Assembly: GCA_026414765.1 (NCBI GenBank)
Contig: JAOAIJ010000015.1
Coordinates: 1 to 64,000, forward strand
Direction: 5' to 3'
DNA: 64,000 nt
From: Clostridia bacterium
Lineage (GTDB): Bacteria > Bacillota > Clostridia > Acetivibrionales > DSM-27016
In this document: piece after piece, positions 34,966-38,374 of the stretch
Layout: every line of letters starts with the position of its first letter
Position numbering within the stretch: the stretch's first letter is position 1
Program-made: the position numbers and the translations under genes
The notes under the pieces: model-generated
Told to the model about the DNA's origin: nothing
Seen by the model: the letters and a program-made list of their open reading frames with translations, nothing else
Database searches by the model: none

Positions 34966-35829
34966 TCAATTGAGTCCTGCCTGTTCCAATATTTCTCTTG
35001 TAGATTTCTTCCTGTTCATTGTATATAAATGAACGCCCGGTGCTCCGTTTGCTATCAGGTCTCTGATTTGTCCGGCTGCATATTCTACTCCTGCTTTTCT
35101 TAAGTCCTCTGCGTTATCAGAATACTTATCTATCATAAGTACAAGCTTTGCAGGGATTGAACAGCCGCTTTTTGCTGTCATTACCTTAATATTGGTATTA
35201 AATATCGGCATTATCCCAGGCATAATAGGGCAAGAAATGCCTATGGAAGCAGCCTTCTCGATAAAATCATAATATAATCTGTTATCGAAGAAAAATTGTG
35301 TCAAAAGAAAGCTTACTCCCTCGTCAACTTTATTCTTTAAGTTTCTCAGATCATCTCTCAGGAGTCTGCATTCGGGATGTCCTTCAAGATAAGCAGCCGC
35401 AGCTATACAGAAATCATTTTTGCTCTTGATATGCTTTATAAGCTCATTGGCATATTTATATACATTTTTACTGAAGTCGAAATCAGGTTGGTTTACAGGA
35501 GCATCCCCTCTTAATGCCAATATGTTTTCCAGTTTGTGTTCCTTCATTAGCTCAAGCATGTTGTCAATCTCTTCACAAGAATGACCTACACAAGTAAAAT
35601 GAGCCATACTCTCAATACCGTATTCATTCTTTATCTTTGAAGCGATTTCTACAGTTCTGCCTTTCTGGCTTCCTCCGGCTCCATATGTAACACTGATGTA
35701 ATCAGGTCTTAAGGACTTAAACTCTTCAAGGGAATCGAAAATGCTTTCAAGCGGTACATCCGGTTTTGGTGGAAACATTTCAAAAGCCAGTACCGGTTTT
35801 TTTGTCTTGAAAATATCTATAATTTTCAT
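34966..35829 (-). CDS. metF: Methylenetetrahydrofolate reductase
   Basis: FAD enzyme reducing 5,10-methylene-THF to methyl-THF for methionine synthesis or acetyl-CoA metabolism. The 287-residue TIM barrel has FEMFPPKP near the N-terminus, DYISVTYGAGGS, LRGDAPV and the HLYTMNR segment close to the C-terminus. It is a single minus-strand gene with its own promoter. No S-box leader was found upstream, and no metV partner is adjacent. Confidence 0.95.
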   Translation of the reverse strand: MKIIDIFKTKKPVLAFEMFPPKPDVPLESIFDSLEEFKSLRPDYISVTYGAGGSQKGRTVEIASKIKNEYGIESMAHFTCVGHSCEEIDNMLELMKEHKLENILALRGDAPVNQPDFDFSKNVYKYANELIKHIKSKNDFCIAAAAYLEGHPECRLLRDDLRNLKNKVDEGVSFLLTQFFFDNRLYYDFIEKAASIGISCPIMPGIMPIFNTNIKVMTAKSGCSIPAKLVLMIDKYSDNAEDLRKAGVEYAAGQIRDLIANGAPGVHLYTMNRKKSTREILEQAGLN

Positions 35830-36022: not shown

Positions 36023-36051
36023 TTGAAGTAATGCACATTTTCCAGTACAAT
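36023..36051 (+). promoter_or_regulatory. Promoter of the symporter leader RNA
   Basis: TTGAAG (36023-36028), 17-bp spacer, TACAAT (36046-36051). Transcription should start near 36058, about 300 nt before the first coding gene. Confidence 0.72.
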
Positions 36052-36057
36052 AAATTT

Positions 36058-36340
36058 AAGTAGAATGGTATTAAGGTAGGTTAAGTGTAATAATTAGCGG
36101 CACACTCAGGGACTGGATTCGGGAAATATTCTCCTGCATCTTACAAGGTTACTCGGTCCTTTTATGTGTTTATTATTGGAATTCATTGATACCCTCTATA
36201 CAGGGTATTTTTTTATTGTAAAGATCCTAATGCCGAAAAGTGGTGCGACCACCTTTGGCTTTTATAAACAGTTTTGTTTTTCAAATGTTCGTGGAGTACG
36301 CGAGTTTGTGTAAAGTGAAACTTCAGGCTCTAAGATTATT
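36058..36340 (+). promoter_or_regulatory. Structured leader RNA with intrinsic terminator (putative riboswitch/attenuator)
   Basis: Nested helices can form: AATAAT 36089-36094 with ATTATT 36172-36177, ACAC 36102-36105 with GTGT 36166-36169, and GGACTG 36110-36115 with CGGTCC 36154-36159. A terminator (ATACCCT 36189-36195 with AGGGTAT 36202-36208, then T7) follows at once. Beyond it, a second hairpin centred on GTGGT-GCG-ACCAC (36240-36252) is extended by GCC/GGC pairs. This looks like an aptamer plus expression platform. It does not match the SAM-I, T-box, TPP, FMN, cobalamin, glycine or c-di-GMP-I consensus as I remember them. Confidence 0.6.
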
Positions 36341-36358
36341 ATGAGAGGAGGAGTTAAT

Positions 36359-36538
36359 GTGTTGGGAATTCCTGATTTCTGGATATGGAGTGCTTATGTT
36401 CTTTGTGTATTAAGTGCGGTTGCTTGTGTCATATACGGTTTATACAACTGGAATAAGGGCGGAGACGATGAGGCTCAGCAGATTCTTGAAGAAAGCAAAT
36501 GGGAAGAAGCGGAAGCAGAACTGGAAGCAAAGCTATAA
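36359..36538 (+). CDS. Symporter small accessory protein
   Basis: A 59-residue, single-helix protein starting MLGIPDFWIWSAYVLCVLSA and ending in a charged tail (KWEEAEAELEAKL). Such small proteins are encoded right before SSS-family symporters in many anaerobes and presumably assist them. GTG at 36359 is chosen because AGGAGG lies 7 nt upstream; ATG 36341 precedes that site. The symporter gene follows after 207 nt. Confidence 0.85.
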   Translation: MLGIPDFWIWSAYVLCVLSAVACVIYGLYNWNKGGDDEAQQILEESKWEEAEAELEAKL

Positions 36539-36745: not shown

Positions 36746-38374
36746 ATGTCGATTTATGTTGGTGTTGTTGTCTTTATTTATCTGGTCATTACAGCTGTTC
36801 TGGGCTATATTGGATTCAAACAAACAAGAACTTCACAGGATTATTTGGTAGCGGGAAGGAAAACACATCCGCTGATAATGGCGTTATCGTATGGCTCAAC
36901 CTTTATAAGTACCTCTGCCATAGTAGGATTTGGCGGATTGGCTGCAAATCTGGGTATGGGACTTCTCTGGCTTACATTTTTCAATGTATTCATCGGAATT
37001 TTTATTGCTTTCATATTCTTTGGGAAACGGACGAGAAAAATGGGTCATACCCTGGATGCACACACATTTCCTGAACTACTGGGAAAAAGGTTTGACTCAA
37101 GATTTCTGCAAGGATTTGCTGCGGCGATTATATTTATATTTATGCCTATATATGCCGCAGGAGTAATAAAAGGTGGAGCGAATTTTGTACAGACTTATTT
37201 GCATATACCTTATGAAACTGCTCTTCTGGGATTTGTACTTATTGTTGCCATATATGTATGGATGGGTGGAATGAAAGGGGTAATGTATACGGATGCCTTC
37301 CAGGGTAGTGTTATGTTTGTGGCTATGCTTACTCTTCTGGTGGTTGCATATGCCAATCTTGGGGGTGTTTCATCCGCTCATAAGCAGTTAACGGATCTTT
37401 ACACTAATCCTGATATACAGCAGGATATTGCAAAGTCCATCAAAGTAGGCTTCCAGGGTTGGACCGCGATGCCTAAAGGAGGTTCACCCATGTGGTGGAG
37501 CCTTGTATCAACAATAGTAATGGGAGTTGGTATAGGGGTACTTGCTCAACCACAGCTTGTCGTCAGGTTTATGACTGTCAAAAGCAACAGGGAGCTTAAT
37601 AGAGCTGTTCTTTCAGGCGGTATCTTCATATTGGCTATGACAGGAATCGCATTTGTGGTAGGCGCATTATCAAATGTTCTTTTATATAAAGATATGGGGA
37701 TGATTGCAATAAAAGCTGCAAAGGGTGTAAATGACAACATTATCCCAATGTTTATAAGTAAATATATTCCTGAGTGGTTTAGTGCGATATTCCTCATCTC
37801 AATGCTTGCAGCAGCAATGTCTACCCTCAGCTCACAGTTTCACGCCATGGGTACTGCAGCAGGAAGGGATTTATACGAGAAAAGCTTTGGAAGAAAGGGC
37901 AACAGCGTGATAATTACAAGGACTGGTATTCTCGTAGTAATATTCATCAGTACTGCACTGGCATGGATGGCAAGCAGCCTTCCCGTAGCAGATGGTATTA
38001 TAGCAAAGTTTACCACTATGTTTTTTGAGTTGACAACAGCAGCATTTCTTCCTGTTTATATTGGTACATTGTATATCAGAAATCTTCCTAAAGCAGCGGC
38101 AATATCAGGAATGATTTCAGGTACGGTTGTGTGGTTTATATGGACCTTCTTTATCCATTCAAATGCTTCCATAATGCAGATATGCAAGCTGATATTCGGA
38201 AAAGCGCCGTTGGTGGCAGATACAGCACTTAAGGATTGGTCCATGATAGGAACCACGTTTGTAGCACTTCCGGCCTCGATTATTGTAACGCTTGCTGTAT
38301 GGGCAGCTTATACAGCTCGTAAGAAATATGATTTGGATAAAAAGCACATAGCAAAGTGTTTTGAGGGGATATAG
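36746..38374 (+). CDS. Sodium:solute symporter (SSS family)
   Basis: A 542-residue integral membrane transporter with about 13 helices. SSS features include FKQTRTSQDYLVAGRK after helix 1, SYGSTFISTSAIVGFGG, GGMKGVMYTDAFQG and FLISMLAAAMSTLSSQFHAM near the Na2 site. It is presumed to import a small organic solute with Na+; the substrate cannot be set from sequence. ATG 36746 follows GAGGAGG by 6 nt; the upstream TTG frame is rejected. A terminator follows the stop by 6 nt. Confidence 0.93.
   Translation: MSIYVGVVVFIYLVITAVLGYIGFKQTRTSQDYLVAGRKTHPLIMALSYGSTFISTSAIVGFGGLAANLGMGLLWLTFFNVFIGIFIAFIFFGKRTRKMGHTLDAHTFPELLGKRFDSRFLQGFAAAIIFIFMPIYAAGVIKGGANFVQTYLHIPYETALLGFVLIVAIYVWMGGMKGVMYTDAFQGSVMFVAMLTLLVVAYANLGGVSSAHKQLTDLYTNPDIQQDIAKSIKVGFQGWTAMPKGGSPMWWSLVSTIVMGVGIGVLAQPQLVVRFMTVKSNRELNRAVLSGGIFILAMTGIAFVVGALSNVLLYKDMGMIAIKAAKGVNDNIIPMFISKYIPEWFSAIFLISMLAAAMSTLSSQFHAMGTAAGRDLYEKSFGRKGNSVIITRTGILVVIFISTALAWMASSLPVADGIIAKFTTMFFELTTAAFLPVYIGTLYIRNLPKAAAISGMISGTVVWFIWTFFIHSNASIMQICKLIFGKAPLVADTALKDWSMIGTTFVALPASIIVTLAVWAAYTARKKYDLDKKHIAKCFEGI

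Follow-up and report, generated by a model that had tools for sequence, protein, structure and literature searches.

The leader ahead of an operon for a symporter small accessory protein and an SSS-family sodium/solute symporter, found in a 64,000-nucleotide stretch of a Clostridia bacterium genome (the window), is a real attenuator, but the structure drawn for it in an earlier sequence-only reading is not its conserved part. Comparison of related sequences makes it probable that the leader is a protein-controlled attenuator belonging to a HutP-family regulon for aromatic amino-acid acquisition. Two conserved parts were absent from the earlier reading: an array of NAG triplets at the 5' terminus of the transcript (element A, 36060-36079) and a structured RNA (element B, 36272-36320).

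Architecture of the leader

The features of the leader and the genes behind it are as follows.
36023..36051, + strand: promoter-like site TTGAAG-17-TACAAT, 9/12 match, weak alone
about 36058-36060, + strand: predicted transcription start, downstream of the promoter-like site
36060..36079, + strand: element A, NAG array GTAGAATGGTATTAAGGTAG, proposed HutP-family site and 5' half of the putative antiterminator
36089..36177, + strand: nested helices of the earlier reading, foldable, not conserved
36188..36214, + strand: intrinsic terminator, hairpin 36188-36209 followed by a U run
36232..36259, + strand: hairpin of the earlier reading, not recognisable in relatives
36272..36320, + strand: element B, structured RNA, covariance-model match of 44.6 bits, covariation, without Rfam match
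36346..36351, + strand: Shine-Dalgarno AGGAGG, from the sequence
36359..36538, + strand: symporter small accessory protein, NF045580, 63.5 bits vs cut-off 35
36746..38374, + strand: SSS-family sodium/solute symporter, TIGR00813 and TIGR02121 below cut-offs, superfamily clear

The GTG start of the accessory-protein gene is a putative one, taken from homologue alignment. The sequence-only reading had placed an attenuator ahead of this operon, and that part holds: the intrinsic terminator is real, and the terminators of relatives lie at the same place. What it called a clear promoter is a site that does exist, and its position is backed independently by homologous sites of the motif, 29 of 56 of which follow a TATAAT-like box at a distance of 6-9 nt; its score, however, is only 9/12, with 6 such sites found in the search vs 3.7 +/- 1.9 expected. 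The three nested helices can fold, but they are unrecognisable by eye in the same-family relative L014 and in others and bring no excess stability, the whole leader being no more stable than its shuffles (z 0.04). The hairpin at 36232-36259, described as a second strong one, is likewise unrecognisable by eye in L014.

Respecting the proposal of a new riboswitch, the leader indeed belongs to no Rfam class: a covariance-model search with Rfam 15, its riboswitches and T-box included, gave no family at the gathering threshold, and at E<=10 only two weak, chance-like matches. For the drawn helices, a new riboswitch is not supported. As a ligand-sensing aptamer they lack conservation, and the 5' end that is conserved is the NAG array, which resembles a protein site; the suggestion of Na+ as the ligand found no support. 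On the minus strand, a methylenetetrahydrofolate reductase gene (window 34966-35829) runs divergently from the leader, and a strong sigma-70-like site lies at 35963-35936.

Element A and the genes behind it

The symporter small accessory protein occurs in 15 of 100 relative genomes, and 80 loci were drawn from the genome collection. Comparison of upstream sequences revealed element A as GUAGAAYGGUAnnaYGG at the 5' end of the transcript, with the consensus GUAGNAYG-GUAGNAYG-GUAG. In the window, the transcript from about +1 bears GUAGAAUGGUAUUAAGGUAG (36060-36079), one copy of this Clostridia repeat and the only site in the window scoring 16/20 or better; its first and third triplets are canonical, and the middle one is UAU. 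One array of three triplets is the rule, and the window copy is a single array with two canonical triplets. The pattern GTAGNAYGGNANNAYGGNAG yielded 32 matches in the 100 relatives against 2 for the reversed control, and 44 matches in 38 of 391 genomes across the class against 5. All matches judged genuine are in the sense orientation. Three pattern matches (L112, L177, L197) were set aside as chance-like, given their odd context, lack of a gene or position inside an open reading frame. We found nothing on this motif in the literature.

Element A precedes genes for DAHP synthase, chorismate mutase (AroH-cmk), TrpX-like ABC binding proteins, a tryptophanase-subfamily enzyme, an HMGL-like aldolase, DctP binding proteins, AMP-dependent acyl-CoA synthetases, PaaK-like proteins and oxoacid oxidoreductases, and two types of SSS symporter, as well as IOR/phenylacetate-CoA ligase operons. 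Among the best matches of the window's own genome are the window site and the sites before aroF (L166) and the aldolase gene (L173); a variant precedes aroH. Together these genes make up a coherent regulon for aromatic amino acids and aryl acids. In several genomes an SSS-IorA-IorB-PaaK-ACT_8 operon begins with the second SSS type. In L210-L213 and L217-L219 the order is SSS, indolepyruvate ferredoxin oxidoreductase, phenylacetate-CoA ligase and ACT domain pair protein, a gene neighbourhood that suggests import of aryl acids by this SSS. Downstream of the array, the aldolase leaders L097, L109, L110, L111 and L125 have TTCTCCGTTTCCAACRATACAAACC in common.

A putative HutP-family partner and the switch

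The HutP family was tried as the partner because arrays of three NAG triplets are a known HutP target: HutP of Bacillus subtilis binds clusters of three such triplets (PMC7430163). The window's own genome encodes a protein matching PF09021 (HutP) at 164 bits vs a cut-off of 25. Members of the family occur in 46 of 50 genomes with the motif vs 14 of 30 others (Fisher p 1e-5, phylogeny ignored); genomes that lack a perfect motif often have the family too, and it was not found in four motif genomes, among them G376 (99% complete) and G095 (96%). In most of 30 loci, hutP is followed by aroH and cmk. The array itself lies between hutP and aroH in L259, L271 and L280, with near matches in L276 (the window's own genome), L277 and L278. 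Sequence and profile searches of the PDB with the clostridial protein found no HutP. An AlphaFold2 model built on 12 sequences (pLDDT 89), however, has only HutP structures as its best PDB matches (Z 17.9, rmsd 2.2 over 128 residues), the next unrelated fold scoring 7.6. By sequence and predicted fold, the protein thus belongs to the HutP family. Taken together, the array, the co-occurrence and the gene order lead us to favor, as the partner of element A, the genome's own HutP-family RNA-binding protein, whose gene lies elsewhere in the genome in an operon with chorismate mutase. The analysis shows the motif with its orientation, position and gene set, the HutP fold, the gene linkage and co-occurrence, and the potential for base pairing. 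We infer that the protein binds the array, and likewise which way control runs, what the ligand is and which solute is carried; the ligand is probably an aromatic amino acid or a related metabolite. Aligning the protein to B. subtilis HutP proved too unreliable for its ligand residues to be read.

The array's pairing with the leader it belongs to exceeds its pairing with shuffled leaders (combined p 2e-10 for 33 leaders, which are not independent), most clearly in the SSS-type-1, DctP and TrpX classes; in the same test the signal was absent for the AroF and aldolase leaders. In the window, the 5' arm and loop of the terminator (36188-36199) can pair with 36060-36072 to form an antiterminator. 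In relatives L013 and L014, array and terminator region are base-paired in the free leader, an arrangement from which a bound protein would release the terminator; blocking the array in the fold model raised the terminator from 0.06 to 0.75 in L013 and from 0.00 to 0.63 in L014. The switch of the window is softer, with the terminator helix at about 0.62 when free and about 1.0 when blocked, and the antiterminator at about 0.35. L004 folds the other way in the same model; either the mechanism varies among leaders or the model does not hold for L004. In TrpX leaders the array can pair with CCCUCCGU, which may alternatively pair, as judged by eye, with the Shine-Dalgarno; this suggests a translational version of the switch.

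We thus propose a putative model for the window leader. A HutP-family protein with its ligand would hold the GUAG array at 36060-36079. The held array could not pair with the terminator arm, the terminator at 36188-36214 would form, and the symporter operon would be off. Without ligand, the antiterminator could form and transcription would continue. At other genes the same array might block translation, either by covering the Shine-Dalgarno or by freeing an anti-Shine-Dalgarno hairpin. Against this model stand the 5-nt spacers, the single window array with its two canonical triplets, the four motif genomes in which HutP was not found, the frequency of the family where a perfect motif is lacking, the opposite folding of L004, the absent pairing signal of the AroF and aldolase leaders and the soft switch of the window.

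In B. subtilis, HutP is the histidine- and Mg2+-activated antiterminator of the hut operon and is known as the histidine switch of this one Bacillus operon; the spacer in hut RNA is 4 nt. The proposed regulator shares with it the family and fold and an RNA target of three-NAG clusters, at some leaders perhaps two of them. The HutP target has two such clusters about 20 nt apart; here extra half-arrays lie near some of 55 leaders, and the window has one array. It differs in its 5-nt spacers, in an array placed at the mRNA 5' end or on the Shine-Dalgarno, in a predicted effect of repression, and in a sequence too distant to retrieve HutP from the PDB. Judged by target genes it is not a functional HutP orthologue, since aromatic genes stand behind the motif and none of the genes read there was a hut gene. 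HutP-family genes are widespread in Clostridia beside chorismate mutase, a pairing on which the open-access literature searched held nothing; the proposal offers them a function, an RNA motif and a list of targets. More tentatively, and with considerable doubt, the HutP-family proteins of Clostridia may act globally on the acquisition of aromatic amino acids: they would sense an aromatic metabolite and exert repression via NAG arrays located at the 5' ends of mRNAs, in the manner of TRAP but with an unrelated protein, and element B may be a further RNA class, new and separate, that helps to control part of the regulon.

Competing explanations and element B

TRAP (MtrB) regulates the trp genes of Bacillus, and its site consists of about eleven KAG triplets with 2-3 nt spacers. 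The array could be a site of unusual spacing for this tryptophan-activated 11-mer, which we consider unlikely. TRAP is encoded in the window's own genome and in 22 of 38 motif genomes vs 67 of 353 others, the regulon includes Trp genes, and the control logic is the same in that repeats compete with an antiterminator or the Shine-Dalgarno is covered or sequestered; the gene set is aromatic as well. TRAP is missing, however, from 16 motif genomes, and families f23 and f55 divide by genus: those bearing the motif have no TRAP, and sister genera that have TRAP have no motif. The trpE leader of the own genome carries a classical TRAP site whose spacers are 2-3 nt, in contrast to the 8-nt period and three triplets of element A. 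If a HutP-family protein is the partner, an unrelated protein would have arrived at the control logic of TRAP, and in a genome that has TRAP too. In that genome TRAP lies at G000:C21:103552 (L127), and the multi-KAG leader at trpE at G000:C21:229168 (L142); nearly all of this order has TRAP, which in the loci read sits in a dnaE-mtrB-pfkA neighbourhood. T-box leaders share amino-acid responsive attenuation, and the trpE leaders of G004, G018 and G027 look T-box-like by eye, but the window leader has no T-box match in Rfam.

The idea of a riboswitch, unsupported for the drawn helices, survives in element B, which the sequence-only reading had missed. Element B is a conserved, covarying structured RNA. 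It comprises an outer stem, an invariant U/YGU internal loop, a CARA:UYUG stem and a variable upper hairpin, and appears in the upstream sequences of relatives as YUCARA-hairpin-UYUGYGURAA ahead of the start codon. Among 18 sequences, 93% of cells are in pairs, with changes on both sides in 25 cells vs 10 in shuffles; the covariation score is 0.475 vs 0.251 shuffled, slid versions reaching at most 0.212. No Rfam family matches it. Its covariance model also matches before LctP-like permeases (L229, L236) and an aldolase (L234), families that recur behind element A. The aldolase and LctP-like leaders L097, L229, L234 and L236 have, between the gene and element A or B, a third conserved stretch of roughly GGWAATRRCYTRCTTCTRAARATYAATGTATT. 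Conservation, covariation and the functionally related transporters and aldolase behind it make element B the remaining riboswitch candidate. That a metabolite riboswitch with element B as its sensing RNA controls the operon is nevertheless improbable: element B lies 3' of the terminator and so cannot act through it, it is small and absent from most array-bearing genes, and the helices at 36089-36177 are not conserved.

The array often begins 6-9 nt after a TATAAT-like box and hence at or near +1, and position alone would fit a DNA operator bound by a repressor, for instance the TrpR-like YerC/YecD protein. The E. coli relative of this protein binds in tandem with a step of 8 bp. The 8-bp period agrees with this, and a TrpR-like protein is present in all 66 genomes tested, a ubiquity that makes it uninformative as a test of partnership. 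The array, however, has no dyad symmetry and a single orientation. Extra half-arrays near the main array of some of the 55 leaders number 23 in sense vs 1 in antisense (about 5 expected). Some of them sit away from the promoter, on the Shine-Dalgarno or the start codon (L099, L101, L181). For many genes of type-2 symporters and acyl-CoA synthetases, the Shine-Dalgarno is part of the array itself. Given this sense bias, the arrays on Shine-Dalgarno and start codons and the pairing with the leader, the sequences are best read as an array acting as RNA rather than DNA, and we regard an operator as quite unlikely.

It is very improbable that the ACT_8 protein (PF19571) is the sensor acting on the array: its presence in 34 of 38 motif genomes vs 192 of 353 others and within several motif-led operons is consistent with a partner but not decisive, as its background presence is high and it may simply follow the IOR/PaaK enzymes, and we know of no RNA-binding precedent for it. 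Gene clustering around the motif loci, mostly in TRAP-less genomes, returned the IOR-PaaK-ACT operon and no obvious RNA-binding protein.

The gene set of the HutP-family regulon proposed here hints at the substrates of both SSS symporter groups and of the small accessory protein; the family models used assign no solutes to them. Methanothrix and other archaea have the small accessory protein too, as do Planctomycetes and Omnitrophota (L031, L035, L041, L070 and others).
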